A stretch of 64,000 nucleotides of DNA from Campylobacterales bacterium (GTDB lineage Bacteria > Campylobacterota > Campylobacteria > Campylobacterales > Sulfurimonadaceae): contig JAPLGP010000018.1 of NCBI GenBank assembly GCA_026390075.1, positions 62,001 to 126,000 on the forward strand. The letters run 5' to 3'. Position numbers and translations under genes: made by a program. A model generated the notes under the pieces. That model saw nothing but the letters and a program-made list of their open reading frames with translations. It was not told the DNA's origin and ran no database searches. Shown here piece after piece: positions 24,000 to 56,147 of the stretch; position 1 is the stretch's first letter, and each line of letters starts with the position of its first letter.

Positions 24000-24025
24000 C
24001 TTTTATTCCTTATACTTTTTATAAC

Positions 24026-24400
24026 CTATGATAGATGAATACTTTGTTGTAACATTTCAAGAAGCTCTTTTCTTGAAAATGGTTTTTCTAAAATATAATC
24101 AAAACCTTTTTCTAAGTACATTTTTTTCATCTCTGCAAAAACGGAAGCAGTTACGGCAACAATAGGTACATTGACAAATCTTTCTTGATTGTTAATCCAA
24201 GAAGCCAATTCCACACCACCCATATTTGGCATCTCAATATCTACTAAAAAAATATCTATATTCTCTTCATGACTCAGCATCTCTATGCCAATTTTACCAT
24301 CTTGCGCCCATAACAATTCCACTGGTGTTTTGAGTTTTCTTAAGTTTGATTTTACTACTAAATAGTTATCTTCATTATCTTCTGCTAAAAATATTCTCAT
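24026..24400 (-). CDS. Single-domain response regulator
   Basis: 124 residues, only a receiver domain: acidic pair AEDNEDN at the start, acceptor Asp in IFLVDIEMPNMGG, conserved Thr/Lys region AVTAS...EKPFSRKE. It is transcribed just ahead of the broken sensor kinase (26-base gap) and is its likely cognate partner or phosphate sink. Confidence 0.9.
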   Translation of the reverse strand: MRIFLAEDNEDNYLVVKSNLRKLKTPVELLWAQDGKIGIEMLSHEENIDIFLVDIEMPNMGGVELASWINNQERFVNVPIVAVTASVFAEMKKMYLEKGFDYILEKPFSRKELLEMLQQSIHLS

Positions 24401-24426
24401 GTATTATTCCTTGTACTTTTATGTAA

Positions 24427-24553
24427 TAGACTTCTTGCAAAACTCAGATTGCTTCGTCGTTCCTCCTCGCAATGACGGTAATTCTTCCTTGGTACATAAC
24501 CGTCATTGCGAACGAAGTGAAGCAATCTAAAAGCGGGTTATGCAAAAAGTCTA
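24427..24553. repeat. Nested palindromic intergenic element, TTGCTTCGTCGTT type
   Basis: Outer inverted ends TAGACTTCTTGCA (24427-24439) and TGCAAAAAGTCTA (24541-24553) enclose a long imperfect inverted repeat: AGATTGCTTCGTCGTTC...TCGCAATGACGGT pairs with ACCGTCATTGCGA...GAAGCAATCT. It shares the inner word with 44334-44437 and the outer end with 34032-34144. Similar sequences are, from memory, dispersed in many unrelated bacteria. It has no ORF; MITE-like or REP-like. Confidence 0.8.
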
Positions 24554-24564
24554 ATGTTTATAAA

Positions 24565-24607
24565 TTCCACATGCCATCTCATAGAGATGAAAGTATGGCA
24601 TGTGCAA
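24565..24607 (-). terminator. Hairpin from inverted TTCCACATGCCA pair at the end of cheB
   Basis: TTCCACATGCCA at 24565-24576 and TGGCATGTGCAA at 24596-24607 (one mismatch to the word). The right arm encodes cheB codons VAHAI and the stop codon lies in the loop, so the repeat has been built into the gene's final codons. Confidence 0.6.
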
Positions 24608-25595
24608 CTTTACTTAATGGCACTTGTCTCTCAACCGCACCTATGTCATAAGCGATTTTAGGCATACCGTAAACTACACAGCTTGCTTCATCTTGTCCGA
24701 TTGTTCTCGCTCCTGCATTTTTCATAGCCAAAAGCCCTTTTGCCCCATCGCCACCCATTCCTGTAAGTATGACACCAATTGCATTTGCACCAGCAATTTT
24801 TGCAACGGAATGAAACAAAACATCTACTGAGGGACGATGACCTGAAACTTTTTCACCACTTCCTATTTCAACATAATATCTAGCACCAGAACGCCGCACA
24901 ACCATGTGATAATCCCCTGGAGCAACTAAAACTACCCCAGGAGTAATACTATCGCCATTTTTTGCTTCTCTTACTTCCATAGCACAAAGTGAATTTAATC
25001 TTTGCGCAAATGGTTCTGTAAAATTTGCTGGCATGTGTTGCACAACAACTGTTCCAGGTCCATTTCTAGGTAATCCTATCAGTACATCTTTAAGGGCTTC
25101 TGTACCACCTGTTGAAGCACCAATCGCTAAAATTTTATTGGTAGTTTCTGCCAATGAAGTTGTATTGGCTTGACTTTTTAACTCTTTTTTAAAAACTTTT
25201 GCTTTTGAGGCTGCTTTTATTTTAGAAATAAGTTCCTCTTTCATTTCATCTTTTGAATCATAAATATGAGAGTGTAACTTAGGAACAAAATCAACAGCTC
25301 CAGCTTCAAGTGCTTCGAGTGTTGTTTTCGCTCCACTTTGTGTTAATGAAGAAACCATAACAACGGGCAATGGCATATAGTGCATAATCTTTTTTAAAAA
25401 AGTAATCCCGTCCATTCGAGGCATTTCAACATCCAAACAAACCACATCAGGCTTAAGTTCAACGATTTTATCCCGTGCTACGAACGCATCCGATGCAGTC
25501 GCTACAACTTCAATAGCTGGGTCTGATTCTAAAATTTCTCGCAACACTGCACGCGCTGTCGCACTATCATCTACAATCAATACTCTTATAGCCAT
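24579..25595 (-). CDS. cheB: Chemotaxis response regulator protein-glutamate methylesterase
   Basis: 338 residues. Receiver (about 3-120; acceptor Asp in VVCLDVEMPRMDG) plus methylesterase domain (about 150-338) with catalytic Ser in AIGASTGGTEAL, His in VVVQHMPANF and Asp in LTGMGGDGAKGL. It removes methyl groups from chemoreceptor glutamates. Distal gene of the chemotaxis operon, 16 bases after cheD. Confidence 0.96.
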   Translation of the reverse strand: MAIRVLIVDDSATARAVLREILESDPAIEVVATASDAFVARDKIVELKPDVVCLDVEMPRMDGITFLKKIMHYMPLPVVMVSSLTQSGAKTTLEALEAGAVDFVPKLHSHIYDSKDEMKEELISKIKAASKAKVFKKELKSQANTTSLAETTNKILAIGASTGGTEALKDVLIGLPRNGPGTVVVQHMPANFTEPFAQRLNSLCAMEVREAKNGDSITPGVVLVAPGDYHMVVRRSGARYYVEIGSGEKVSGHRPSVDVLFHSVAKIAGANAIGVILTGMGGDGAKGLLAMKNAGARTIGQDEASCVVYGMPKIAYDIGAVERQVPLSKVAHAILSSL

Positions 25596-25611
25596 GAATT
25601 ACCTCCGAACA

Positions 25612-26082
25612 TTATGTGTTACTCTTAGCAATATACTTTAACAATACTTTTCCATATTCTAAATTAAATTGAATTTTTCTGCCATTTTGTTTGCCAACAT
25701 CTTCGGCAACTATAGCTATTTTATACTCTTTTAAAATCTCTTTTGCAACCAATATATTTTTTTGCCCAATCATCATATTATCTAATACCGACGCGTTCAT
25801 GGATGCACCACCAAAAATTTTTGCTTCCATATTTTTAAGATTAGAACCCTTGTCTAACATGGTTTCTATCAGTTTTGGAATGGCTATATTTCCAAATTTT
25901 GGAGATTGCAAACCATTCCCATTCCAAAAAGGGAGTAAATAGTGATTCATCCCTCCTATTCCCTGTATTTTATCGTACAAACAAACAGACACACAAGAAC
26001 CTAAAACTGTTGAAATTGCAGTAGGTGCAACATCAACATGGATTTGACCCACATGTATGAAAGTTGAACTACCGTAAATCAT
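25612..26082 (-). CDS. cheD: Chemoreceptor glutamine deamidase
   Basis: 156 residues. CheD signature: catalytic Cys in TVLGSCVSVCLYD and His in GGMNHYLLP, with Thr in the FGGASM / QNGRKI region. It deamidates receptor glutamines and in other species interacts with CheC/CheY. The ATG overlaps the stop of the preceding gene by one base (TAATG). Confidence 0.95.
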   Translation of the reverse strand: MIYGSSTFIHVGQIHVDVAPTAISTVLGSCVSVCLYDKIQGIGGMNHYLLPFWNGNGLQSPKFGNIAIPKLIETMLDKGSNLKNMEAKIFGGASMNASVLDNMMIGQKNILVAKEILKEYKIAIVAEDVGKQNGRKIQFNLEYGKVLLKYIAKSNT

Positions 26083-26906
26083 TATAATTCCATCACATTA
26101 TCAAAGGACTCAAATAAAAATTCATTTGAACCATAGGCTTGAGAATCTATCATGCTCTCATCAAAAAGCAGTGTAACGACAAAAGTGACAAACCCATCTT
26201 CTACCACATAATCCACACCGCCGCCCAATCTTTCACATAATTCACGAACAATACTAAGCCCGATGCCTAGTCCATGTTCTCCCTTCATATCTTTTGCAAA
26301 ACGCGTAAATACTTCTGGCTTATAATCGACCTTTGGTCCTTGCCCTTGATTTTTTACTGCTATACGCAACACTGAGTTATTCGTATCTAAAGTTATATCT
26401 ATCACACCATTTTCAATGCCGTATTGGCATCCATTAGCGATAAGATTTTTAACTATCATATAAATCTTTTTTGGATCAGATACAACTTTTTGTTTTATTG
26501 TACTTGTTACATTTATTTGAATATTTTTTTCTTTAATCACATACTTTAAACTCTCACACACTTCATCAATAATCTCTTTAGGCTGAAATAAAGCGTAAGT
26601 TATATCAACCGTTCCACTCTCTATTTCAGCAGCCATAACTAAGTTTTGAATTCTAAAATCAAGATTGAGAGCTTCATAATGAACTAAATCAAAAATTTTC
26701 TTATTTTGCTCACCCTCCTCAATTTTCAGATGTGGAATCATGCCTAAAAGAACAGTCATAGGATTATTTAATTCATTTGCAACAAGGGATAAAAATCTTG
26801 ATTTTGCTTTTTCACTTTCAATGAGTTTCTTATTTAGCTCTAAAATCTTTTTACTTAAAAAAGCTAACTCGTCTTGAACGCTCTCTTTATTTGATATATC
26901 TTTCAA
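26082..26906 (-). CDS. Degenerate histidine-kinase-like protein lacking the phospho-acceptor His
   Basis: 274 residues, soluble. A coiled coil (about 8-40) leads into a HisKA-like helix pair, but where the H-box should read SHELRTP it reads ANELNNP, so the acceptor His is Asn. In the HATPase domain the N-box (NLIANGCQYG) and G2 box (GLGIGLSIV) are intact, but the adenine-contacting Asp of DxGxG is Asn (KNQGQGP). Autophosphorylation looks impossible; a scaffold, allosteric or nucleotide-sensing role in the chemotaxis operon is inferred. It lies between the PAS/MCP-like gene (3-base gap) and cheD. Confidence 0.85.
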   Translation of the reverse strand: MKDISNKESVQDELAFLSKKILELNKKLIESEKAKSRFLSLVANELNNPMTVLLGMIPHLKIEEGEQNKKIFDLVHYEALNLDFRIQNLVMAAEIESGTVDITYALFQPKEIIDEVCESLKYVIKEKNIQINVTSTIKQKVVSDPKKIYMIVKNLIANGCQYGIENGVIDITLDTNNSVLRIAVKNQGQGPKVDYKPEVFTRFAKDMKGEHGLGIGLSIVRELCERLGGGVDYVVEDGFVTFVVTLLFDESMIDSQAYGSNEFLFESFDNVMEL

Positions 26907-26909
26907 AAT

Positions 26910-28274
26910 TCAACCTTCAATATTTTTCATATTTGACATATCATCTTCTAACTTATTTAACATTCTATCCATCTCTTTTGATTCATTTATCAACATATTA
27001 TTTTCTCTAAAAAAACTTTCACCCATTTTTTTCATGACTGAAATTTCTTCTGTCGTATTGGCAATTAAAGATTTTAATTGTGAAAATATTTCACCAAATC
27101 CTGATGAAGCATCATTACTTCTAGCAGATTCAATAACTCCATACACCTGAATATAGCCTAAATACATAATTTGTTGTTCCAACTCTTCAAGATGAATAAG
27201 ACTTTTTTGAATGGATGTATCCATGCTCAAAGTTAACTCAGTTAATTTTTTATTGTATAAATGGACAAGTTCAAAGAGAACATAAACACTATTATTTAAC
27301 GCACCATTCGTATCTTCAAACAACTCTTTTACAAAATAAGTTACCATCTCCATTTGTAAACTTATGGATGAAACCAAAAATATACTCTCATTTAAGGAAT
27401 ACGATAAAGATTCAGAGAGTGCATGAATTTGCCCAATAAGAATATCATTCTCTTTTGCATTTGTTCTAATATCACTCGCCAATACACCAAATGTTTCTCC
27501 ATTTGTATCAATCTTATACGATGCAACGGAAGCATTCAGCGATAAAAATACAATACTTCTCGCAAGAGAACTTAAAACAGAAGCTTTCTCTTCAAACAAT
27601 GATTTAACCCTGTAAAACAAATCAATTTTTTCAAACCATTTATCGTATCGTTCCAATAATATTTTACTAGAACAATACAGTGATGTAATTTTTAGTTCAT
27701 GTTTTGGTGCCAAACAAATAGAATCAACATCTGAATTATTTTCCAAAAGTAGTTTTTTTCGCTCTAATAACTCAGCTAATAAAACTTCATTCATAAAATG
27801 ATCATAATCACGATAACCAAAACTACTTAAAGCTTCCAAAAGTAATTTCTCACTCGCATCCATGTCTGTATTTACTTCAGCCATCAATAATTTAGAATAG
27901 AGTTCTTTAACTAAAGAAAAAACTTCTGTACTAGGCTTTATTCGTATAGAGATATATTGCTCTTTTAAAGGAAATACTACAGCAAAAACCCAATAGTATT
28001 CACCTTGTTTTGTCCTATTTTTCACATAAGCAGCAACTGGCTTATTTGCTTTTAAATGATCCCATAATATTTTAAAAACAACTTTTGGCATATCTGGATG
28101 ACGAATAATATTGTGAGGTTGCAAAAGAATCTCATCTCTTGAATAGCCACTTATGCGTACAAATGTATCATTTCCTGAAACGATTGTACTGTCCTTCTTG
28201 GTAATTGAAAAGAATAATTCGTGCAAATCAAAATTTGCCTCTTTTGATGCAATAAAATGTTCGCTATTTTTCAC
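26910..28274 (-). CDS. Soluble Aer-like PAS protein with divergent MCP-type hairpin segments
   Basis: 454 residues, no membrane segment. The N-terminal PAS (about 18-125) is of the Aer type (IIRHPDMPKVVF, AAYVKNRTKQGEYYWVFA). The rest is helical. Two stretches look like worn copies of the receptor signalling tip: FLSLNASVASYK...FGVLASDIRTNAKEN (about 270-305) and YGVIESARSNDASSGFGEIFSQLKSL (about 385-412), compare [31 protein letters not shown] in the true MCP nearby. It may join the receptor/CheA array or act as a redox-sensing adaptor; function is unknown. Confidence 0.75.
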   Translation of the reverse strand: MKNSEHFIASKEANFDLHELFFSITKKDSTIVSGNDTFVRISGYSRDEILLQPHNIIRHPDMPKVVFKILWDHLKANKPVAAYVKNRTKQGEYYWVFAVVFPLKEQYISIRIKPSTEVFSLVKELYSKLLMAEVNTDMDASEKLLLEALSSFGYRDYDHFMNEVLLAELLERKKLLLENNSDVDSICLAPKHELKITSLYCSSKILLERYDKWFEKIDLFYRVKSLFEEKASVLSSLARSIVFLSLNASVASYKIDTNGETFGVLASDIRTNAKENDILIGQIHALSESLSYSLNESIFLVSSISLQMEMVTYFVKELFEDTNGALNNSVYVLFELVHLYNKKLTELTLSMDTSIQKSLIHLEELEQQIMYLGYIQVYGVIESARSNDASSGFGEIFSQLKSLIANTTEEISVMKKMGESFFRENNMLINESKEMDRMLNKLEDDMSNMKNIEG

Positions 28275-28283
28275 TTATTTCCC

Positions 28284-29108
28284 TTATATTTTTTGATAAA
28301 TTGAAGAACCTAAAAGTTTAAGGGTCTCTTTATGCGTTGTTAAAGATTCTGAACTTCCTAAAAATAGGGGAGCACCTTTTGGCAATACTCTTGTATATTT
28401 TTCTATGAGTTCATGTCTATTGACATCATCAAAATAAATCATAACATTCCGGCAAAAAATCATATCAAACTTATTTTTGAAAAAAAATGGGTCTGTAATG
28501 AGATTATACAAACGAAATACGACTTTTTGTTTGAGAAATGGTCGTATTTGGTATCGCAAAACACTATCTACTTGTACTTTATCAAAAGATTTCATAACCA
28601 TTTCTTTTGGCAATAGTTCTACTTGTTTAGACTCATAATGTCCTGCAATTGCTTTTGAGAGAACTTTAGATGAAATATCTGTTGCCAAAATTTTTATATC
28701 CCAACTCTGAAAATCAGGTAAATGATGCTGTAAAAACATCAAAATAGTATAGGGTTCTTCACCACTTGAACACCCTGCTGACCAAATTCTAATTTTTTTA
28801 TCTTTTTTAGATGCAATGAGCGCTGGTAAATATCCCTCTAACCATATCCACTGAGCTGATTCACGAAAAAATGATGTAACATTGGTCGATATTGCGCTTA
28901 CAAAAAATGTAAGTTCTTCACCGCTTATATCACTAATTAAATAATCATAGTAATCTCTAAATGAGTTCAAACTGAGTTGATTCAATCGTTTATTGAGACG
29001 ACCCTTGACTAAAGTACTTTTTTGCTCAGAGAGAGAAATACCGACTTTTTTATAAATATAATTACGAAAAAGTGTAAACTCTTCTGGTTTAAGTTCAATC
29101 TCAAACAT
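28284..29108 (-). CDS. cheR: Chemotaxis protein-glutamate O-methyltransferase
   Basis: About 274 residues from the ATG at 29108 (MFEIELKPEEFTLFRNY), which overlaps the cheA stop by 8 bases; an ATG at 29138 would add 10 residues. SAM-binding IRIWSAGCSSGEEPYT and the CRNVMIYFD motif are intact. It methylates receptor glutamates with SAM, opposing CheB. Confidence 0.95.
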   Translation of the reverse strand: MFEIELKPEEFTLFRNYIYKKVGISLSEQKSTLVKGRLNKRLNQLSLNSFRDYYDYLISDISGEELTFFVSAISTNVTSFFRESAQWIWLEGYLPALIASKKDKKIRIWSAGCSSGEEPYTILMFLQHHLPDFQSWDIKILATDISSKVLSKAIAGHYESKQVELLPKEMVMKSFDKVQVDSVLRYQIRPFLKQKVVFRLYNLITDPFFFKNKFDMIFCRNVMIYFDDVNRHELIEKYTRVLPKGAPLFLGSSESLTTHKETLKLLGSSIYQKI

Positions 29109-31221
29109 GAGTAACTTCAGTGATAGGTCGCAACTCATCTACATTTAAAATAAGTGCAATATCGCCATTGCCAAGTATCGCTCCACCCGATATCTCTTTG
29201 AGTTTCACGAGTGCTTTTCCTAATGTTTTTATAACAACTTGCTGACGACCCACAAGCTCATCTACCATAATTGCTATGCGCCCTGCTCCTGTTTCTACGC
29301 ATACTAAAATGCCTTCCCAAGGTTCAATGCGTTTTGCATTCAAGTTAAATACATCACTTAATCTCACAACAGGAATATATTGTCCTCTGAGGCTTACAAA
29401 TTCACCTTTTTCTTTGAGAACATGTACTATCTCTTGTTGGGGACGAAACGATTCAACAACACTCAGAGTAGGAATAATATAAATTTCATCACCACAGCGC
29501 ACTAACATACCATCAATAATAGCGAGTGTCAAAGGAAGAATGATAGAAAATGTAGTTCCCTTACCCTCTGTTGAATCAATCTCTATTTTTCCACGAAGTT
29601 TTTCTATGGATGTTTTTACAACATCTAAACCAACTCCACGCCCTGAAAGGTCACTAATTGTATCTGCTGTTGAAAATCCAGGTTGCATAAGAAGAGCAAA
29701 TATTTGAGAATCACTAAGATTTTCATCTCCAGTAATCACACCTTTTTCAATCGCTTTTCTTAACACTTTCTCTTTGTTAATTCCTCTGCCATCATCACTC
29801 GCACTGATCACAATACTTCCGCTTTTATGAAAAGCTTTGAGTGTCACTGTTCCAGCTACATTTTTACCAGCTTGGAGTCGTTCATCTGCATCTGCTTCTA
29901 ACCCATGGTCTATGGCATTACGCATGATATGTATAAGCGGGTCTGAGAGACTGTCAATCATAGTTTTATCTATTTCTGTATCTTCACCTTGTAAAATAAG
30001 ATGTACTTCTTTTCCTGTTTTTTTAGAAGTATCTCGCACAACTCTTTGCATTTTTTCAAATGTATCTTTAATCGCAACCATTCGCAAACTCATAACACGG
30101 TCTTGAATTTTTTTTGTAATTTTTGAAAGCGTCTCTATTGTACGAGAAATAGACTCATCTTCAATCAAATTAATTTTTTCATTCTGTGCAATAAAATTTT
30201 GTGCAATAACCAACTCTCCAATAGAATCAAACAACTCATCAAGTTTAAATGTATCAATACGAATCGTTGATTTTTGGCTCACAACACTTGCCACTGCTTT
30301 ATTTGTTACTATATTTGGAATGTTAGAAAGTATAGGAGTTGCCGCAGATGCCACATGCCCCAAAGAAGCTACTGGAAGTACAGAAACTACATTTTTTTCA
30401 CTCTCTTTTGGTTTGATTAAAGTGATTTTATACTCATTATCAAATAAAAATTGAAAAAACTCTTCTACTTCATCATAAGAGAGCGGTGTCAATATCACTA
30501 TAGAAACCTGACTTATCCCACTTTCATCACTCTTAAATTTATCAATAGTATCAATACTTTGCATATTGAAAAAGCTCTCTATTGATTTTGCCATTTCACC
30601 CAAATTTTTTAAAAACAGAAGATGATCAAATCCGCGTTTATAGCAATCCACATCAAGCATCAAATCAATTTTATATAAATTGAATCCCTCTGTTTGTACA
30701 GCCTGATACTCTTGGATACTTTTTTCTACTCCATTTTCAACTTGCTCATCACAACTAAAACCAAACTCAGATGCTAAATCATTCAATGGACTTACATTTT
30801 TTAACTCTTCTACAAAAGGTATATTTTTATTTTTTTTGATTGCAAGTAAAATTTTTATTTTTTCCAAACAATCAAGATAACTCTCAGGTAATGTGTCAAT
30901 AGCGTCTAACTCACATGTCATAATTTCTTTAATAACATCCACACTCGCAACAAAAAGCTCTAAATTATGCTCTTCGATACTCTCTTTAGTACTTCTATAA
31001 TAGTCCAATACATCTTCAAAATGGTGAACAAACTCGCCTAAACGAGTAAACCCAAAGGCATTCGCATTTCCTTTTAAAGTATGAACTCCACGAAAAATTT
31101 CATTTAAGAGATTAAAATCACAAGAATTTTCTTCAAAGTGAATAATATCTATATCTAATTTTTCAATTATCTCTCCAGCTTCTTCTATGAAAATAGCTTT
31201 TACTTGCTCTTGCTTAGTCAT
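29101..31221 (-). CDS. cheA: Chemotaxis histidine kinase
   Basis: About 706 residues from the ATG at 31221 (MTKQEQVKAIFIEEAGEI), overlapping the STAS gene by 8 bases. Hpt/P1 domain with the phospho-acceptor His in GVHTLKGNANAFG (about residue 48); a linker region with a possible P2-like domain; dimerisation P3 (about 320-390); HATPase P4 with NAIDHGLE, DDGRGI and GRGVGLDVVK; CheW-like P5 at the C-terminus. It controls the motor through CheY in response to receptor arrays. Confidence 0.95.
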   Translation of the reverse strand: MTKQEQVKAIFIEEAGEIIEKLDIDIIHFEENSCDFNLLNEIFRGVHTLKGNANAFGFTRLGEFVHHFEDVLDYYRSTKESIEEHNLELFVASVDVIKEIMTCELDAIDTLPESYLDCLEKIKILLAIKKNKNIPFVEELKNVSPLNDLASEFGFSCDEQVENGVEKSIQEYQAVQTEGFNLYKIDLMLDVDCYKRGFDHLLFLKNLGEMAKSIESFFNMQSIDTIDKFKSDESGISQVSIVILTPLSYDEVEEFFQFLFDNEYKITLIKPKESEKNVVSVLPVASLGHVASAATPILSNIPNIVTNKAVASVVSQKSTIRIDTFKLDELFDSIGELVIAQNFIAQNEKINLIEDESISRTIETLSKITKKIQDRVMSLRMVAIKDTFEKMQRVVRDTSKKTGKEVHLILQGEDTEIDKTMIDSLSDPLIHIMRNAIDHGLEADADERLQAGKNVAGTVTLKAFHKSGSIVISASDDGRGINKEKVLRKAIEKGVITGDENLSDSQIFALLMQPGFSTADTISDLSGRGVGLDVVKTSIEKLRGKIEIDSTEGKGTTFSIILPLTLAIIDGMLVRCGDEIYIIPTLSVVESFRPQQEIVHVLKEKGEFVSLRGQYIPVVRLSDVFNLNAKRIEPWEGILVCVETGAGRIAIMVDELVGRQQVVIKTLGKALVKLKEISGGAILGNGDIALILNVDELRPITEVTHV

Positions 31222-31477
31222 GACATATCCAATGAATTTTTCCATATACTGGTGAGATGGTCATCCCTTTTTCTAAAAAATGAATTTGCAACTCAGGTTT
31301 AGTTCTCTTCAAACTTGCTAGTATAGAAATAAAAGCACTGCATTTGAGTGAGCTTGTCTCTTCTACTTCAATTACCTCAATATAATCCATTCTAGGACGA
31401 ATAAACTCTTCAAACTCTCTAATCTCGTCCATAGACATATCTGTATCTAGGGTAAGAACATCGCCATTAAATTCCAT
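31214..31477 (-). CDS. Small STAS-domain-like protein
   Basis: 87 residues. The pattern beta-strand (VLTLDTDMS), EVEETSSLKCSAFISILASL (the usual STAS DSSGL loop reads ETSSLK) and a C-terminal strand-helix suggest a STAS domain like those encoded beside cheA in environmental chemotaxis operons. It starts one base before the MCP gene ends and overlaps cheA by 8 bases. It may bind a phosphorylated partner or nucleotide; unproven. Confidence 0.65.
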   Translation of the reverse strand: MEFNGDVLTLDTDMSMDEIREFEEFIRPRMDYIEVIEVEETSSLKCSAFISILASLKRTKPELQIHFLEKGMTISPVYGKIHWICHD

Positions 31478-33121
31478 CTAAAATTCTTTTAAATCGTCTT
31501 CATGCAAAGGAAAAATTTCTTCTGCCTTGTTGGTTGAAGAGCTACTTTTAGAGATTTGAACTTTTCTTTGTGGCATGTGGGATGTTTTCATTTCCACATG
31601 CTGAGGAGATTTCTTTTTTTGTACAGATACAGAAGCATCTGACTCCATACCAACCATTTTTGCTAGTATTTGTACAGTTTCCATCATCGATGTTGCTTGT
31701 GCATTTAGCTCTTCTGCAGCGGCAGCTGCTTCTTCTGAATTTGCAGCAACTTGTTGTGTCACTTGATCCACTTGTCCCATGGCTTGGTTGATTTGAGACA
31801 TACCTTCGCTTTGTTCTTTTCCTGCGATAGAAATTTCTCCTATCAAGTCAGATACTTTTTTAGATTGCTCTACTATCTCTTGAAAAGATGTATGTGTGGC
31901 ATGTGCAATTTCATTTCCTTGTTTAATTTGCCCTACAACTTCTTCGATAATAACAGAAGTCTCTTTTGCTGCTGAAGCTGCTCTTTGTGCAAGATTACGA
32001 ACTTCATCTGCGACAACGGCAAAGCCTAGTCCATGTTCACCAGCCCGTGCAGCTTCTACTGCTGCATTGAGTGCAAGAAGATTTGTTTGAAATGCAATTT
32101 GGTCTATTGTTTTAATAATTCCAGAGATTTTTGCAGCGGATTCAGTAATAGCGTGCATAGAGTGGGAGAGTTGTTCCCCTTTTTGATACCCTGCTTTTGC
32201 AGAATCATTTGCATTTTTTGCCAAAATATCCGCTTGTCTTGCGTTATCTGTGTTTTGCGTATTGATAGCTGTACTCTCTTCTAAGGTTGCACTTACTTCT
32301 TCAACGCTTGCAGCTTGTTCACTCGCACCCTGAGCCAAAGAGGAAGATGAAGAAGCTACTTGATCACTCGCCGATGTAATTTGCATCGCACCATCACGGA
32401 TAGATGTTACACTTTGTTTGATTGAACGCGTAATTGAGCGGATTATCAATATGGACAACAAAATTGAGAGAGCAAATGCAATCGATACAACCATAATAGT
32501 CAATTGAACAGCACTTTTTGAATCTTCTTGTGCTGTTTTGACCGTTACATTTGCAGCAGCAACATTAATATCAGAAATTTTAATTATCCCATTCAGTGCA
32601 GCAGTACGAAGATCACGACTCGCTTCAGTAAATGTCTTCATCTGTGTGAAATAACCATTTATTTTTTCTGGATCCGTATTGTATGAAAGTGGTTCAAGCG
32701 TATTGGCTTGAAATTTCAGACTTAAATCTTTCCATTTGCCAAATATTTCTTCATACTTCTTCCATTCCATTGCCTCTTCAGGAGTTTGTGGAAGTGAAGC
32801 ATAAATTTTAAGCCCTTTTTCATAACGCTCAAATCCTTTTGCAATTTTATCAATAGCATCTTGTATTTTACTACTAAGTCCTTCATCCCCTTGAAGACCA
32901 CGAACACGGTTTTGTTGAATTGCTACGAGATTAATTCCCACGCGCATCTCCATGATACCAACAATGGATGGAAGTTTAACCATACCAACATCCGCAATAC
33001 TACGCTCCCATTTTTGCGTTGTGTTAAATCCCATATATCCTAAGATAGCCAGAGAAAACATCATAACCCCAGTTAATAAAATCAACTTACTTTGTAAAAC
33101 CATATTTTCTAACCAATTCAT
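31478..33121 (-). CDS. Methyl-accepting chemotaxis protein with four-helix-bundle sensor
   Basis: 547 residues. Membrane segment (about 10-30), periplasmic 4HB-type sensor (about 35-190), second membrane segment (about 195-220), a short HAMP-like link and a signalling domain whose tip is [26 protein letters not shown]...[14 protein letters not shown]. Ala/Glu-rich methylation helices flank it. A variable ~50-residue linker follows the helical bundle and contains an inverted pair of the CCACATGC word (31571-31602). The extreme end [10 protein letters not shown] could be a CheR/CheB tether, though it lacks the usual Trp. Confidence 0.94.
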
Positions 33122-33123
33122 TT

Positions 33124-33621
33124 TTATAATCCTTCTGTTATTTGTTTTTGTTGTATCTGTTCGATACTCAGTAACTCATCCGCTTCAAAAAGCTTCAGAA
33201 CATCTAAAATCATAACGACTTGATTTTCAATTTGAGCGACACAGCTGATAAAATCTGTATCTATGTTATTTCCAAATTTTGGTGGTTCACTCAAATTTGA
33301 TGAATCAATGGAAGAAACCTCTTCTACTCTATCAACAATAGATCCGATACTGACCTTTTCCACCTCAACAATAATGATGGTCGTGTTCATATCTGCTTCT
33401 CTATGTTCCATGTTAAAACGCAGTCTCGTATCCACAACAGGTATGATAGAACCTCGTAAGTTGATTACCCCTCGCATGTAAGAAGGAATTTTTGGAACAT
33501 TTGTTATTTTCATCATGGCAATAATCTCTTTGATTTTATCAATTGCTATGCCATATTGTTCATTCCCTAAATAAAAAGTAAGATATCGCTCTCTTTTTGT
33601 CTGAAGTGTGTTTTGATTCAT
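33124..33621 (-). CDS. cheW: Chemotaxis coupling protein
   Basis: 165 residues with the CheW fold: [46 protein letters not shown] and a long C-terminal [12 protein letters not shown] segment. It links the receptor tip to the CheA P5 domain. It is separated from the MCP gene by 2 bases and from cheY by 2 bases. Confidence 0.95.
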
Positions 33622-33623
33622 TC

Positions 33624-34010
33624 TTAAACCCCCAATATCATTTTAAGTGATTTCACAAGTTTGTCGTCACTAAATGGTTTTACCATCCACCCTGTAACTC
33701 CAATCTCTTTACCAAGCATCTTCAAATCGTTAGAACTCTCCGTTGTTAAAATAATAAGCGGCTTATTTTTGTACCTATCATCCGCTTTAATTGCACGAGC
33801 TAAATCTAAACCATTTAACTGTGGCATATTTACATCGCTTATCAACAAATCATAATTTTCACTTCCACTTTGCAAGGCACCTAATAAATCCATTGGATTG
33901 AGATACGATTTAAACTCAATAGTTCCTGAGTTAATCATCTCTTCCAAAGCCAACTCTGCTGTTGCGATTACTGCTCTTGAATCATCTACTATAATTACTC
34001 TTTTTGCCAT
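33624..34010 (-). CDS. cheY: CheY-like response regulator
   Basis: 128 residues, receiver only. Acidic pair VDDSRAV, acceptor Asp in DLLISDVNMPQLNG, Thr in ILTTESS, Lys in WMVKPFS. Likely the diffusible output of the CheA at 29101. A palindromic element (34032-34144) lies directly upstream. Confidence 0.92.
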   Translation of the reverse strand: MAKRVIIVDDSRAVIATAELALEEMINSGTIEFKSYLNPMDLLGALQSGSENYDLLISDVNMPQLNGLDLARAIKADDRYKNKPLIILTTESSNDLKMLGKEIGVTGWMVKPFSDDKLVKSLKMILGV

Positions 34011-34031
34011 TTTGTTTTTCCTTTGTTTTAT

Positions 34032-34144
34032 TAGATTTCTTGCATAACCAAAGATCCTGAATCAAGTTCAGGATGACGAAAGTTTATATGTTCCGTTTTC
34101 CAAACTTCATATACTCCGTCATTCCGAACTTGATTCGGAATCTA
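34032..34144. repeat. Nested palindromic intergenic element, CCTGAATCAAGTTCAGGATGA type
   Basis: Starts with TAGATTTCTTGCATAA, the same end as the elements at 24427 and 44334. Its core differs: AGATCCTGAATCAAGTTCAG...GATGACG pairs with CGTCATTCCGAACTTG...GAATCTA. It fills the 136-base gap between cheY and the upstream response-regulator gene and would form a long hairpin in the operon mRNA. A common dispersed repeat type, as far as I recall. Confidence 0.8.
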
Positions 34145-34146
34145 TT

Positions 34147-35577
34147 TTAAAAAAATTCCATATCATTTTCATCATCAGCATCTACATGCTTATCATCAAT
34201 AATCGCCTCTATTTGCATACACGAACTAAAAAATGAACTATCTACATAATGAATATCCGCCGTATCTTGTAAAATAAATATATGCTCTCTCCACGATGTA
34301 AGGTCTTTGCCTAAATGTTCGAGTAACATAATGAGCATTTTTATTTTCTCACTATCCTCACTTACAACCTTTGCACTCTCTTTCATAAAAACACTCAAAG
34401 AAGTGAGTGCATACGCAAGGGCTGTAAATTCAAAAAGATTGTTAATCGCTCGTACATAAACATTTAACACAGAATCTGCAAAATAGACAAAATTCTCTTC
34501 TGTGGGATTTTTCTCAATTGCACCGAGTGTTCCCTCCCACTCTTCATCTATACTCGTTAAATCAAGAATTTCTTCAAGAACATCTCCACCGAGTTCACTT
34601 ACATAGTCTGCTGCACTTGTTTTATTTACAAAGCTTTGATGTAAAAGTTCTCTCTCATTTGACTGAATGACTCTTATCTCTTTAACCTCTTTCACACTCT
34701 CTTGTATTTCTTCTTGAATACTTTGGCATGTGGATTCAACTTTTGTAGTTGTGAGAAGAATTTTTTCAATGTACTTTGGTATTTCTTTTGCAATAACTTT
34801 TATCTCTTGAGGTTTACTCAACCTCACACAAACTATATTTTCTTGAAGAATAAATTCAGTTCCAAACTCTTTAAGCATCTCTGATACTTTTTGCTCTAAA
34901 GTAATCACTCTATCAAATTTCATTGTTATGTAAAACTCTTCATAGCTCTCTTCTATGATAATGCTCATAGTTTCACCATTTTTATTTCCTTGGCTCATAA
35001 GCATATAAAAAACTTCAACAGCTCTATCAAATTTATTGGATGCTACGATTGATTTACCATTGTATTGGTCAAAAAGCCACATGCCGAAGTCCATCATAGA
35101 TTCTGCGTTGAGAATATCAAAGATAGTTTTGAAAGAGCGAATATCAGAATTAAAAGGATTAAGTGCTATTTTTGTTGAGAGGATATTTTTTTTACCCAAG
35201 GTTACACGAAGTGATGCAGCAATGCTTTGAAGTTTATAACGAATCAACTCTCTGTCAACTGGTTTGTGAATATAAATATCCACTCCTATTAAACTCATAT
35301 TATCTTCTACTCGAGAGTCAATTACCGCTGTTACCGCAATAATAACAACATCTGGATACTGCTCTTTTATAATTTTCGATGCCTCAAAACCATCCATTTT
35401 TGGCATCATTATGTCCATTAAAATAATATGTGGCTGCCAAGTTTGAGTGATTTCAATCGCTTCAAGTCCATCCACCGCATCTCTTATTTCAAAACCTTCT
35501 AATTTTCTGCATATAGCTCGTAAAACTAAACGATTGTCCTCTGAATCATCAGCGATAAGAAGTTTTAATTTATCCAT
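34147..35577 (-). CDS. Response regulator with an uncharacterised ~350-residue output region
   Basis: 476 residues. Receiver (about 4-120; acidic IADDSEDN, acceptor Asp in IILMDIMMPKMDG, IHKP near the end). The rest has no recognised enzymatic or DNA-binding motif; it is mixed alpha/beta, then an acidic helical region (about 280-476), ending DADDENDMEFF. It heads the chemotaxis operon and is therefore a candidate phosphorylation target of CheA. It holds two copies of the core word (35077-35085 read as GMW, 34725-34733 read as STCQ). Confidence 0.8.
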   Translation of the reverse strand: MDKLKLLIADDSEDNRLVLRAICRKLEGFEIRDAVDGLEAIEITQTWQPHIILMDIMMPKMDGFEASKIIKEQYPDVVIIAVTAVIDSRVEDNMSLIGVDIYIHKPVDRELIRYKLQSIAASLRVTLGKKNILSTKIALNPFNSDIRSFKTIFDILNAESMMDFGMWLFDQYNGKSIVASNKFDRAVEVFYMLMSQGNKNGETMSIIIEESYEEFYITMKFDRVITLEQKVSEMLKEFGTEFILQENIVCVRLSKPQEIKVIAKEIPKYIEKILLTTTKVESTCQSIQEEIQESVKEVKEIRVIQSNERELLHQSFVNKTSAADYVSELGGDVLEEILDLTSIDEEWEGTLGAIEKNPTEENFVYFADSVLNVYVRAINNLFEFTALAYALTSLSVFMKESAKVVSEDSEKIKMLIMLLEHLGKDLTSWREHIFILQDTADIHYVDSSFFSSCMQIEAIIDDKHVDADDENDMEFF

Positions 35578-35693
35578 TTGTTACTCTTTTATAAAATTGA
35601 TTTACGACATTAAATCAAACAAGAATGCAAAAAGAATGCAGATTTTACTAATTTTGGTAAAATGAGTGTAAGAGTTTTTCTAAGAGGATATTT

Positions 35694-36989
35694 ATGAATA
35701 ATAGTATTAAAGAAGTAGATTCGATTTTGTTAACATCAGATATACTTCACACTCTTCGTAATAGCTTAAATGCTATTTTAGGGTATTCACAAATACTTCA
35801 AGATGATGACTCCGACGCTGATGAACAAAGAAGAATGCAAATATCGATTGAAAATGCAGCTTTAAATATTAAATCACTCGTTTCTATTAAAAAAGAAGCT
35901 CTAAAAAATGATGCAACTATCACTCTAAAAAATCAAAAAACGAATAAAGAGAGTTGTAGCGTAAAAAACTCATTTATGAATCAAAAAGTGCTTATCGTAG
36001 ATGATAAACCTGAAAACCTCTCTTTGTTTAGCGATATTCTTCGTCCCTTTCATTATGATTTAAGTCTTGCAACGAGTGGTGTTATGGCGTTAGAATCACT
36101 CAAAACTTTTCATCCTGATTTAATTTTACTCGATGTTGTCATGCCACAAATGAATGGGTATGAAGTGCTTCAAGAGATAAAAAAAGATAAAAGAACTTGT
36201 GATATTCCTGTTATCTTTTTAACAGCTAAAGATACAACGGAAGATATTGTAAAAGGACTTGAAGCGGGTGCAGTTGATTATATTGCAAAGCCATTTCATC
36301 CAAAAGAGTTAATCGCCAGAGTCAGTACGCATTTGGAAAAAGCGAGAGTATTTGCAAATCTCAAAAGATTAATGGAACACTCCTTTCATGAACTTTACAC
36401 ACCGCTGAGTGTAATAAGTTCTGCGATGCAAATTCAAGAGTTAGAGCATGAAAAAACAGACTACACACAGATGACTTTAGCCGCATGTAAAACATTGCAA
36501 AATATTTATGATGACCTTTATTATTCTATTCAATATAAGAATAGAGTCAGACCTAAAATTGTGTTTGATTTTGCAACACTTTTACTTCAAAGAATTCATT
36601 ATTTTAGTCTCGTAGCACAGAGTCGCTCTTTAAAATTTAAAACAAATTTACCAAATCAAATGTTACTTCAACTTAATCAAGAAGATATGGAAAGAGTTGT
36701 GGATAATCTCCTCTCAAATGCACTGAAATATACACAAGAGTGCGGTGAAATAACTATTTCATTAGTGCAAAATCATGGCATGTGGATATTCTCAATTTGT
36801 AATCCAATTGCCAAAGAGATAGATGCCCAAAAAATATTTATGAAATATTATCGTCAAGAAGAGGAAGTATTTGGACTTGGGCTGGGACTTGAACTTGTAC
36901 AAACTATTTGTAAAGAGAACTCTATCAAAATAAATGCCTCTACTGAGGATGAATTATTTTGTATTCAAATGGAGTTGGAAATAAAATGA
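35694..36989 (+). CDS. Hybrid histidine kinase with central receiver and two H-box-like helices
   Basis: 431 residues, soluble. Order: a HisKA-like helix (ILHTLRNSLNAILGYSQIL, about 18-36), a receiver (about 95-215; acidic VDDKPEN, Asp in LILLDVVMPQMNG, Lys in IAKPF), a second H-box (HSFHELYTPLSVISS, about 230) and a HATPase domain (NLLSNALKYT, GLGLGLELVQ; the G1 box is eroded to ICNPIA). A direct repeat AAGAATGCA lies in its leader. It overlaps the OmpR-type regulator by 4 bases (ATGA). The adjacent convergent MacAB-TolC operon is a candidate target. Confidence 0.85.
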   Translation: MNNSIKEVDSILLTSDILHTLRNSLNAILGYSQILQDDDSDADEQRRMQISIENAALNIKSLVSIKKEALKNDATITLKNQKTNKESCSVKNSFMNQKVLIVDDKPENLSLFSDILRPFHYDLSLATSGVMALESLKTFHPDLILLDVVMPQMNGYEVLQEIKKDKRTCDIPVIFLTAKDTTEDIVKGLEAGAVDYIAKPFHPKELIARVSTHLEKARVFANLKRLMEHSFHELYTPLSVISSAMQIQELEHEKTDYTQMTLAACKTLQNIYDDLYYSIQYKNRVRPKIVFDFATLLLQRIHYFSLVAQSRSLKFKTNLPNQMLLQLNQEDMERVVDNLLSNALKYTQECGEITISLVQNHGMWIFSICNPIAKEIDAQKIFMKYYRQEEEVFGLGLGLELVQTICKENSIKINASTEDELFCIQMELEIK

Positions 36990-52502: not shown

Positions 52503-52590
52503 TATTCTTATGCATAAATAACCCTTATTGTATATTGAAATGACTCAAAAAACCAAACGATTTAAATTTTATATTCTATTTAAACATCTT

Positions 52591-52681
52591 ATTGTACAAT
52601 TCACGGACATAAAGCCAAACTTATCGTGAGGTAAGGACGGAAAGTCACGAATCTTTTTGATAAAGATTGTCGGACTGCAAT
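52591..52681 (+). promoter_or_regulatory. Cyclic-di-GMP-I (GEMM) riboswitch aptamer
   Basis: The conserved core is readable: TCACGGACATAAAGCCAAAC, then stem CTTATC/GGTAAG capped by a GTGA tetraloop (52620-52635), then GGACGGAAAGTCACG, a second stem AATCTTT/AAAGATT (52650-52668) and GTCGGACTGC. The closing helix ATTGTA (52591-52596) pairs with TGCAAT (52676-52681). Aligned from memory to the Vibrio Vc2 aptamer, the ligand-contacting G20 and A47 are kept, and the G21-C46 pair is swapped to C-G, a compensatory change. A -10-like TATATT is at 52570-52575. It precedes the ATG at 52761 by 79 bases. CTGCAA (52675-52680) can also pair with TTGCAG (52701-52706), a possible expression-platform switch. 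Confidence 0.85.
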
Positions 52682-52760
52682 AAAGTTTCATACTCTTAGT
52701 TTGCAGCATTCAATACAATCTTCTTCTCAAAAAGTACATATAATATTGTTAAGGAAGGGT

Positions 52761-54269
52761 ATGTTAGATTCAGAATTAAAATTTTATTTAAAAACACACT
52801 TGCAAAAGCCAACAATTGACTTTAAGTGGAGTGATGAAGATAATGCTAACTTATTTGCTTACTTCAATAAAACCTGTGCAAAAGAGTGTCTCCTTGATGC
52901 ACAAAATCAACTAAGAATCAAACAAGCTTTTAAAGAATATTTTGAATCTATTGGCTATATACTTTTTAAAATGAATGAAAATCAAATACGCTTTAAGGTT
53001 TTTGCATATAAAGTAGAACCTAAAGATAGTATAAATTTATCTTCTGTTATTGAAATAATAGAATCAAACAAACAACTCATAGAATATAACTATAAAGAAA
53101 AAGAGAATCAGATATCGATACCTGCATCGTTAAAAGCACTTATTTACCACTTTATCAACAATATCAACAATGAAGAAATTAATAAAAAAGAGTTGACTAG
53201 GTTTGCAGTGGCTGAATTTTTTAAACTGAGACAACAAGATATTGTTCTAGTAAGAGATGAACAAATATTTATAAAAATATTGGATGACAATTACAAAAAT
53301 AGCGTTTCTGAAAATGAAAAAGATACGATAGCAAACCGATACAATGGGGTAAACGAAGAAGATCTGAAATCCCTTTATGATGATTTCTTTGCAAAACAAG
53401 AAAATAAAAACTTTTTTTATTATGTTGCAAAACTAGTTGTTCAAATATATTTACTTGATGAAAAGATTGATAATATTGTATATGAGAAAAATATATTTTC
53501 TTACATTCAATCTATAATATCTGAACAAATAAAAAACTTTAACAATCAAAATGATGATTTTTGTACAGGGTTTTCTGGTTATATTTTTAGAATACACTTT
53601 AAAGAGGTATTTGTACATATAGCAAATTTTATTTTAATAGAAATAGCAGCGTCAAATGAAGATATGATACAATTTTTAAGATACTACTCTTTAGGAATTG
53701 TTGTACAAGATGGAAAAAAATATAAAGTTCCAGAAATTGAATCAGAAAATGGTTTAAGATGGAATGTTGTGTCCATGCTCTCGATAGTGAAAGTATATAT
53801 AAAAACAAAAACTTCTATAGATAAAGCAAGAGAAAATATAGACGAAATCAATAAAAACAGTCAATCCTTGTGCATCAACGACCTTCCACCTTTAGACTAT
53901 CAAAGCAGTATCATGAAAGAGCAAGAAGAACTTGAAGAGCAATTGTTTAAAGACCAAAAAAGAATAGAAAGAGTTGCAGATTTGTTAGACATCACAAAAG
54001 AAGAAGAGAAAAAAAGTGAACTCCGAGCAGAGATACAGGAGAGAAAAGAGCAATTACAAATTACAAGAGATGAAAAAACCAAACTAAAAGATAAGACAGT
54101 TGAGAAAAGTACTATTGTGAAATATAGTAATCTAAGAATAGAACACGACACGATACTGAGACAACTTCATAGAGAAGAGAAAATTTTAGCCCAAAACGAG
54201 AAGGCATATTTATCCATCAAACACGCTTTAGCTAAAGCACTTACATCAAAAAAAGTGTTTGTAAACTAA
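52761..54269 (+). CDS. Riboswitch-controlled protein of unknown function with C-terminal coiled coil
   Basis: About 502 residues from the ATG at 52761 (MLDSELKFYLKTHLQKPTID), chosen because AAGGA lies 5 bases upstream; a TTG at 52701 is in frame but falls inside the riboswitch 3' region. No signal peptide or membrane segment. The first ~370 residues are alpha/beta without a motif I recognise; from about 400 to 485 there is a long charged coiled coil (EEQLFKDQKRIERVADLL, LRAEIQERKEQLQITRDEKTKLKDK). It is followed by a two-component pair on the same transcript. The riboswitch implies c-di-GMP-dependent expression; the function could be surface attachment or motility related, but only by association. 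Confidence 0.8.
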   Translation: MLDSELKFYLKTHLQKPTIDFKWSDEDNANLFAYFNKTCAKECLLDAQNQLRIKQAFKEYFESIGYILFKMNENQIRFKVFAYKVEPKDSINLSSVIEIIESNKQLIEYNYKEKENQISIPASLKALIYHFINNINNEEINKKELTRFAVAEFFKLRQQDIVLVRDEQIFIKILDDNYKNSVSENEKDTIANRYNGVNEEDLKSLYDDFFAKQENKNFFYYVAKLVVQIYLLDEKIDNIVYEKNIFSYIQSIISEQIKNFNNQNDDFCTGFSGYIFRIHFKEVFVHIANFILIEIAASNEDMIQFLRYYSLGIVVQDGKKYKVPEIESENGLRWNVVSMLSIVKVYIKTKTSIDKARENIDEINKNSQSLCINDLPPLDYQSSIMKEQEELEEQLFKDQKRIERVADLLDITKEEEKKSELRAEIQERKEQLQITRDEKTKLKDKTVEKSTIVKYSNLRIEHDTILRQLHREEKILAQNEKAYLSIKHALAKALTSKKVFVN

Positions 54270-54292: not shown

Positions 54293-54979
54293 ATGTTAGA
54301 AAAAAATATAAAACTAAAAATTCTTTTACTAGAAGACGACCCTCTCATTTGCGATATTTTATCAGAATTTCTTGAAGAAAATGGGTATGAAGTAGTATCT
54401 GTTTATGATGGAAATGAAGCAATTGATAAAGCCTATGAACAACACTTTGATGCCTTTATCTTTGATGTTAAAGTGCCTTCAAAAAATGGATTTGATGTAT
54501 TAAAAACACTTAGAGAATCAAAACAAGAAGTACCAGCAATTTTTATCACATCCTTGGCTAGTATCGATGACCTCTCAAAAGGTTATGATGCTGGATGTGA
54601 TGACTATATTAAAAAACCTTTTGAGCTAAAAGAGCTTCAATTGCGTCTTCAAAAATTAATCCGAAAATCTTTTTCACTCAATAGTAACGACAAAATAACT
54701 CTTAATAAGTTATGGTCTTTTGAACCAAAAAGTGGAAAACTCTATGGTGAAAATGGTGAAAAATTTTTAACAAAAAAAGAGACAAAAATAGTTAATATAC
54801 TCATATCTAATAAAAATCACATGGTATCTAATGAGCAAATTATTAATGATGCGTGGGAATTTAATGAAGAAGCGACAGAAGAAAATCTTCGTACACATAT
54901 AAAAAAATTACGCAAAATCTTGGGTAAAGATACAATTCAAAATATACGCAAACAAGGATATTTAATTGCTATTAGCTGA
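54293..54979 (+). CDS. OmpR-family response regulator
   Basis: 228 residues. Receiver with acidic LEDDPLI, Asp in AFIFDVKVPSKNG and Lys in YIKKPFEL; winged-helix output domain (FLTKKETKIVNILISN, WEFNEEATEENLRTHIKKLRK, IRKQGYLI). It overlaps the sensor kinase gene by 14 bases and lies 23 bases after the riboswitch-controlled gene, so likely also under c-di-GMP control. Confidence 0.92.
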   Translation: MLEKNIKLKILLLEDDPLICDILSEFLEENGYEVVSVYDGNEAIDKAYEQHFDAFIFDVKVPSKNGFDVLKTLRESKQEVPAIFITSLASIDDLSKGYDAGCDDYIKKPFELKELQLRLQKLIRKSFSLNSNDKITLNKLWSFEPKSGKLYGENGEKFLTKKETKIVNILISNKNHMVSNEQIINDAWEFNEEATEENLRTHIKKLRKILGKDTIQNIRKQGYLIAIS

Positions 54980-56147
54980 AAAAAAAGCTCTTATAAAATT
55001 TGTATCTGTTTTTGTTGGATTAAATACTCTCTTTTTAATCACACTCTCGGTACTTTATTATTATTATCAAAAAAATATTTATATAGATATACTTCAAAAT
55101 GAAATGGTCAATTACGCTGAAACAGCCTATGAGTCGATATATGAAGCTGAAGATAGTAACAAACTAGATGAATATTTACTCCATGATACAAGATTTGATA
55201 TTGCTATAACAGATAAGCAATTCAATATTATTTATTCTAAAACAAATGATTTTAAAATAAAACATAAACAAGGTTTTTTTACACAAGGAAACTACTATTT
55301 TTTTGTAAAAACAATTGAAATTGATAGCATAAAAAATATTCACTATCTTATACTCAGAACGAGCACCATAGACGAACAATTAAATCAAACAAAAAGTACG
55401 ATAACTATTGTTTTGTCTTTTTCGATTCTTTTTTTTGCAGTTGTAACTTTTATTTTATCAAGACTTTTTTTACAACCCTTGCGCCAATATATTGAACTTT
55501 TAAACAAATTTATAACAGATGCAACACATGAGCTCAATACTCCAATTGCAATTTTATCTATGAGTCTTGAAGTGATAGATACAAAGGAATTTACTCCTAA
55601 AAATCTAAAAGCAATAGAACGCATACTCATCGCCGTTAGAACACTCTCTCATCTTTATAATGACCTAACATTTATCATGTTCCCTATCCATTCTGAGTCA
55701 GAACAAAAAGTAAAATTAGATGAACTCATTTTACAACGCATAGCTTATTTTATGCCTCTCGCATCTACGAAAAATATTAGTTTTATACAAGAGTTGAAAC
55801 CTTGTGAGATTACTGTAAATGAGCGTTTTATGGATAGGATTATCGATAATTTATTTTCCAATGCTATTAAATACAATAAAAGAGATGGAACGATTAAAGT
55901 TGAGTTAGATACATATTGGCTTAAAATTTCAGATACAGGAATAGGATTTGAGCAACTAGAATCTAAAGAAATTTTTCAACGCTACACAAGACTTGATAAC
56001 TCGAGTGGTGGATTTGGAATCGGGCTGAGTATCGTAAAATCGCTATGTGAACTCTATGAAATTACTATTGATGTTCACTCAGAAAAAGAACTCGGAACAA
56101 CATTTACTTTATCATGGAAAAATTCACGAATAATTCACACTTCATAG
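54966..56147 (+). CDS. Membrane sensor histidine kinase
   Basis: 393 residues, TTG start inside the regulator's end. Membrane segments at about 10-32 and 145-168 with a ~110-residue periplasmic sensor, no HAMP seen. H-box ITDATHELNTPIAIL, N-box NLFSNAIKYN, G1 DTGIGF, G2 GFGIGLSIVKS. Cognate of the OmpR-type regulator upstream. Confidence 0.92.
   Translation: MLLAEKKALIKFVSVFVGLNTLFLITLSVLYYYYQKNIYIDILQNEMVNYAETAYESIYEAEDSNKLDEYLLHDTRFDIAITDKQFNIIYSKTNDFKIKHKQGFFTQGNYYFFVKTIEIDSIKNIHYLILRTSTIDEQLNQTKSTITIVLSFSILFFAVVTFILSRLFLQPLRQYIELLNKFITDATHELNTPIAILSMSLEVIDTKEFTPKNLKAIERILIAVRTLSHLYNDLTFIMFPIHSESEQKVKLDELILQRIAYFMPLASTKNISFIQELKPCEITVNERFMDRIIDNLFSNAIKYNKRDGTIKVELDTYWLKISDTGIGFEQLESKEIFQRYTRLDNSSGGFGIGLSIVKSLCELYEITIDVHSEKELGTTFTLSWKNSRIIHTS

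Follow-up and report, generated by a model that had tools for sequence, protein, structure and literature searches.

A c-di-GMP-I riboswitch aptamer, apparently without helix P1, in the leader of an uncharacterised protein gene of Sulfurimonas

The closest described systems to the element considered here are two c-di-GMP-I (GEMM-I) riboswitches, Vc2 of Vibrio cholerae and Cd1 of Clostridioides difficile. Vc2 is a translational OFF switch, and loss of its helix P1 abolishes binding (PMC9262584). In this aptamer A47 stacks between the guanines of the ligand (PMC3764141, PMC9049102), C92 pairs with the ligand, and the P3 pairs C59-G79 and U60-A78 constitute the tetraloop receptor; highly conserved positions include G20, C22, G45, A47 and C92, and do not include 21 and 46 (PMC3764141). 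The Cd1 aptamer, which has been described without P1, binds c-di-GMP with an affinity of 0.25–1.9 µM that varies with transcript length (PMC9262584). The cGAMP riboswitches of the GEMM-Ib (pilM) type, found in Geobacter and relatives, share the overall fold and carry A20 (PMC6274999); G20 has been described as contributing to selectivity without acting as a hard filter (PMC9262584). In the titles and abstracts of the relevant papers in the open-access library searched, c-di-GMP riboswitches were not linked to Sulfurimonas, Campylobacterota or Epsilonproteobacteria.

The DNA analysed, referred to below as the window, is a stretch of 64,000 nucleotides from a Campylobacterales genome of the family Sulfurimonadaceae. 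It contains an element that resembles Vc2 in P2, P3, the GNRA tetraloop, the receptor pairs, G20, A47 and C92. It differs from Vc2 in its target gene, in having C21-G46 where Vc2 has G21-C46, and in that P1 appears to be missing, a property in which it is like Cd1.

Identity and ligand class of the aptamer

The features of the aptamer, numbered as in Vc2, are as follows.

52604–52682, + strand: c-di-GMP-I (GEMM-I, RF01051) riboswitch aptamer (cmscan; covariation over 47 relatives)
52614, + strand: G20, the ligand-selectivity base (RF01051 alignment)
52615–52640, + strand: helix P2, with C21-G46, C22-G45 and the stem 52620–52625/52630–52635, GUGA-capped
52641, + strand: A47 (RF01051 alignment)
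52643–52676, + strand: helix P3, with the tetraloop-receptor pairs C59-G79 and U60-A78
52678, + strand: C92, the ligand-pairing base (RF01051 alignment)

An initial annotation had placed a GEMM-I riboswitch at 52591–52681 and proposed a covariance-model search as a check. When the whole 64-kb window was scanned with Rfam cmscan, the riboswitch was recovered as an RF01051 match at 52604–52682 (+) that spans all 87 model positions, with a score of 58.7 bits (the gathering score is 35 bits) and an E value of 6.3e-9. A scan of the entire genome gave no second match above threshold, the next best scoring 14.5 and 14.2 bits. The RF01051 alignment places C21-G46 at 52615/52640, C22-G45 at 52616/52639 and the GNRA tetraloop (GUGA) at 52626–52629, so that G20, A47, the GNRA loop and the C-G swap at 21-46 are all as originally described. 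The accompanying statement that all GEMM-I elements are present holds for P2, P3, the tetraloop, G20, A47 and C92, and does not appear to hold for helix P1, which is part of the GEMM-I consensus and is not modelled in RF01051.

The P2/P3 structure was evaluated in an alignment of 47 family sequences, one row of which (L033) came from an incorrect position and was retained in the count. It is apparent that the two helices are maintained: 96.1% of cells are paired, as against 84.7% in shuffles and at most 50.1% in slid controls, and both-sided changes occur in 13 of the 21 pairs. The covariation score is 0.485, compared with 0.262 for shuffles and no more than 0.146 for slid controls; none of 500 shuffles reached any of the five measures. 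The covariance score and the covariation together support the identification of the window element as a genuine c-di-GMP-class aptamer and place it securely within an established riboswitch class; it is expected from its sequence to bind c-di-GMP.

The C-G pair at 21-46 had been put forward as an argument for c-di-GMP over cGAMP. Among distinct Sulfurimonadaceae aptamers, however, it was found in 85 of 87, with G-C in the other two (71 were read by script, giving 70 C-G and one G-C, and 16 by eye, giving 15 and one). The exact C21-G46 pattern was also present in at least 116 stretches from Desulfobacterota, Gammaproteobacteria, Campylobacterota, Nitrospirae and others; a minority, Rhodococcus and Akkermansia among them, could have matched the pattern by chance. 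On these alignments C21-G46 is the usual state in Sulfurimonadaceae and represents covariation inside a known family; as a distinguishing feature of the window element it was rejected. The swap backs a folded helix and is uninformative on the ligand. It is G20 that favours c-di-GMP over cGAMP: base 52614 is G, and the A20 signature of GEMM-Ib is absent from the window element. Two RF01051 matches elsewhere in the same genus, L110 (G189:C263) and L112 (G179:C34), do have A20 instead of G20, the signature of cGAMP-type (GEMM-Ib) riboswitches.

The target gene and its genomic context

Three genes follow the aptamer on the same strand, the second and third of which are possibly cotranscribed with the first.

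52761–54269, + strand: P0001, a 502-aa uncharacterised protein, the target gene of the switch
54293–54979, + strand: OmpR-type response regulator (Pfam Response_reg and Trans_reg_C)
54966–56147, + strand: histidine kinase (Pfam HisKA and HATPase_c)

Sequence searches assigned P0001 to no Pfam or NCBIfam family and revealed no clear PDB relative; only weak matches, mostly of coiled-coil type, were obtained. In the AlphaFold model (mean pLDDT 88.1) the N-terminal part is mixed and the C-terminal half is long and helical; residues 90–350, modelled separately, gave a mean pLDDT of 79.0. Foldseek returned no match to these models at E < 0.001. With VIA-align 2 the coiled coil (approximately residues 325–501) reached Z scores of about 10–11, which are uninformative for long helices, and the N-terminal part at most Z 5.1, with an rmsd of 3.7 over 70 residues. 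Nothing in either fold search identified the protein.

Of 135 genomes of the genus, 59 encode P0001. In a sample of 249 genomes from the phylum it had matches in 12, all of them Sulfurimonadaceae, and plasmids yielded no match; by these searches the protein is restricted to Sulfurimonadaceae among the genomes sampled. Among the 22 best-scoring loci of the genus (L034–L055), 15 had an RF01051 element above threshold upstream of the P0001 ortholog, and these 15 include one gene with an in-frame stop codon (L036), one without the N-terminal segment (L055) and one that ends at a contig edge (L054). It was not found upstream of the other seven, one of which (L050) extends no more than about 80 nt upstream, nor at eight P0001 relatives without the first ~80 residues, nor at two orthologs in another genus (L248 and L249). 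The response regulator and histidine kinase at 54293–56147 are not conserved neighbours of P0001. For this reason the pair was rejected as the conserved target and P0001 is taken to be that target; judged from the genomes compared, the riboswitch and P0001 form a conserved unit in Sulfurimonas. This conserved position before orthologs, together with the E value and the covariation reported above, excludes for practical purposes a chance sequence resemblance in place of a riboswitch, a reading for which no supporting point was found.

Across the family, RF01051 was above threshold in 62 of 200 sampled Sulfurimonadaceae genomes, and across the phylum in 10 of 150, family members included. Many of the other Sulfurimonadaceae c-di-GMP-I riboswitches, which have the C21-G46 form in common with the window element, differ from it in standing before genes for signal-peptide or lipoprotein-like proteins. 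In translations inspected by eye, signal-peptide, lipoprotein-like or adhesin-like proteins were seen downstream in L007, L020, L021, L023, L029, L032, L080, L082, L111 and others. Several of these proteins have CxSCHSS-type cysteine motifs recalling haem binding. In one genome (G025) a lipoprotein-like gene is preceded by two tandem c-di-GMP-I aptamers (L006 and L068) separated by about 150 nt.

The window also encodes three proteins of c-di-GMP metabolism.

1574–3394, − strand: HD-GYP-type receiver protein
3382–4659, − strand: receiver-GGDEF protein
17288–19834, + strand: GGDEF-EAL protein

These three enzymes, named in the initial annotation, are real. The local signalling circuit that had been drawn from them was not upheld as a specific one, since c-di-GMP is diffusible, the enzymes lie more than 30 kb from the switch, and the 2.4-Mb, 61-contig genome contains 65 GGDEF matches (64 above cut-off) and 24 EAL matches. 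With such numbers, proximity is no evidence of a dedicated circuit. PilZ had no match above its cut-off in the same genome. With a single GEMM-I aptamer amid so many GGDEF matches, P0001 stands out as a candidate function under c-di-GMP control. Elsewhere in the window, genes for histidine kinases, response regulators and chemotaxis-type proteins (CheA, CheB, CheR, CheW and MCP-like, from open reading frame translations read by eye) are densely clustered at 21645–36989.

The 5′ end of the leader and helix P1

The interval originally assigned to the riboswitch begins at 52591, and its 13 extra 5′ bases contain a promoter-like element.

52595–52600, + strand: −10-like promoter box TACAAT (box in 15 of 15 orthologous leaders)

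A TANAAT-type box ends 13–20 nt 5′ of G20 in all 15 leaders (13 nt in the window), and the bases that separate it from the aptamer vary among them. A retained box with a variable spacer is typical of a −10 element. Transcription therefore probably starts near 52606–52607, 6–7 nt past the box and about 8 nt 5′ of G20, a position that would leave room for little or no P1; the helix is thus apparently absent from the RNA. The only long helix available there pairs UUAUUGUA with UGCAAUAA (52589–52596 with 52676–52683). This candidate P1 was rejected because C92 itself would be engaged in it and covariation gives it no support, 60.8% of its cells being paired as against a shuffle mean of 62.6%. A looser search found plausible P1 helices in some other Sulfurimonadaceae c-di-GMP-I leaders, and nothing significant in 13 leaders of the P0001 type.

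This last result, and the effect of P1 loss on Vc2 noted at the outset, would fit an aptamer that is intact in sequence and binds c-di-GMP too weakly to be of consequence, that is, a degenerate or low-sensitivity switch. Such an outcome is considered very unlikely, as Cd1 is functional without P1 (PMC9262584) and the binding bases kept in the 15 P0001 leaders, with the strong covariation in the family, point to selection on function. A natural aptamer without P1 would also be instructive about what determines affinity in its absence, and the apparent lack of this helix and the conserved tie to one uncharacterised protein are the features that could interest a specialist.

The putative expression platform

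The segments of the leader that are relevant to gene control are listed below.

52663–52670, + strand: AAGAUUGU, P3 3′ strand, capturable by the tail (complementary to 52715–52722)
52689–52697, + strand: CAUACUCUU, candidate anti-SD/anti-start segment (9 contiguous pairs with 52755–52763, p 0.046)
52715–52722, + strand: ACAAUCUU, candidate anti-aptamer segment (8 contiguous pairs with the P3 3′ strand)
52720–52727, + strand: CUUCUUCU, further anti-SD candidate (paired to the SD when the aptamer is constrained to form)
52750–52758, + strand: Shine-Dalgarno (SD) sequence UAAGGAAGG (−6.1 kcal/mol for the duplex with the 16S 3′ end, used as test sequence)

In the unconstrained fold the leader adopts a long hairpin, the tail segment ACAAUCUU being paired to AAGAUUGU of P3, and flanking pairs extend the duplex. 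The P3:tail complementarity gave p 0.15 for the window alone and p 0.0075 when the five closest leaders were combined, related leaders being counted as independent; the pairing occurs at a tail offset of 32–36 in four of five close orthologs. For the window, p was 0.003 in a looser duplex test that used plain shuffles. The partner of CAUACUCUU, 52755–52763, consists of the end of the SD sequence and the start codon. Opening of the ribosome-binding site (RBS) in the window was calculated to cost 5.0 kcal/mol in the unliganded leader versus 10.0 kcal/mol with the aptamer held formed. This difference of +5.0, compared with a shuffle mean of +0.7, corresponds to p 0.010; for the 15 orthologs combined, again with related leaders treated as independent, p was 0.026. 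The test of the free-minus-aptamer energy gap was negative (p 0.26 for the window, 0.52 for all orthologs), so that the four statistics computed do not all agree.

These calculations incline us, slightly, towards a translational OFF switch in the P0001 leader, the logic of Vc2. In the mechanism proposed, transcription would start just 5′ of the aptamer, leaving P1 very short or absent as in Cd1, and the P2/P3 scaffold would fold first, able to bind c-di-GMP. Without ligand, the leader would rearrange into the longer hairpin in which the tail at 52715–52722 captures the P3 3′ strand, and the RBS would be easier to open. Once c-di-GMP is bound, P3 would be locked and the tail freed, CAUACUCUU and/or CUUCUUCU could then pair with the SD/start region, and the masking of that region would reduce translation of P0001. 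Three points keep the proposal from being held more firmly: the leaders, being related, are not independent of one another, several statistics were tried, and the sign is reversed in three orthologs.

In those three (L035, L038 and L040) the RBS is easier to open with the aptamer formed, as would be expected of an ON switch, in which the ligand frees the RBS or stabilises the mRNA and P0001 rises at high c-di-GMP. Structure-only folding is noisy for AU-rich leaders, and closely similar GEMM-I aptamers serve both ON and OFF switches (PMC9262584). Against this direction, formation of the aptamer makes the RBS in the window harder to open, to an extent beyond that of shuffles, and an ON switch is regarded as unlikely.

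The OFF logic would be identical if the leader were controlled by Rho-dependent or other termination instead of translation; at about 150 nt it is long enough, and Rho sites escape the scans used. No intrinsic-terminator-like hairpin was found from aptamer to start codon, however, which removes an intrinsic terminator as the platform and sets the leader apart from Cd1, an OFF switch that works through transcription termination, and the candidate pairings in the window reach the SD sequence and the start codon. Action at the level of transcription is accordingly rated as decidedly unlikely.

To return to the translational OFF switch, the aptamer ensemble of the window was calculated to lie approximately 4.3 kcal/mol above the total ensemble. 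Given an affinity like that of the P1-less Cd1 aptamer, only high ligand would pay this cost at equilibrium, and co-transcriptional folding would therefore have to matter. The fuller proposal, namely a P1-less, promoter-proximal switch that acts by capture of the P3 3′ strand, is conserved in Sulfurimonas and provides dedicated translational control of the uncharacterised P0001-type family, is offered as a possibility and is on balance doubtful. If it is true, capture of P3 would represent a wiring of GEMM-I different from that of Vc2, where P1 drives switching.

In four of the P0001 loci (L038, L040, L041 and L045), the SD sequence that follows the riboswitch opens an upstream ORF of 15–16 aa, the stop codon of which ends 1 nt before the P0001 ATG. 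This arrangement suggests translational coupling of the upstream ORF with P0001 in these loci; the encoded peptide is alike in L038, L040 and L041.
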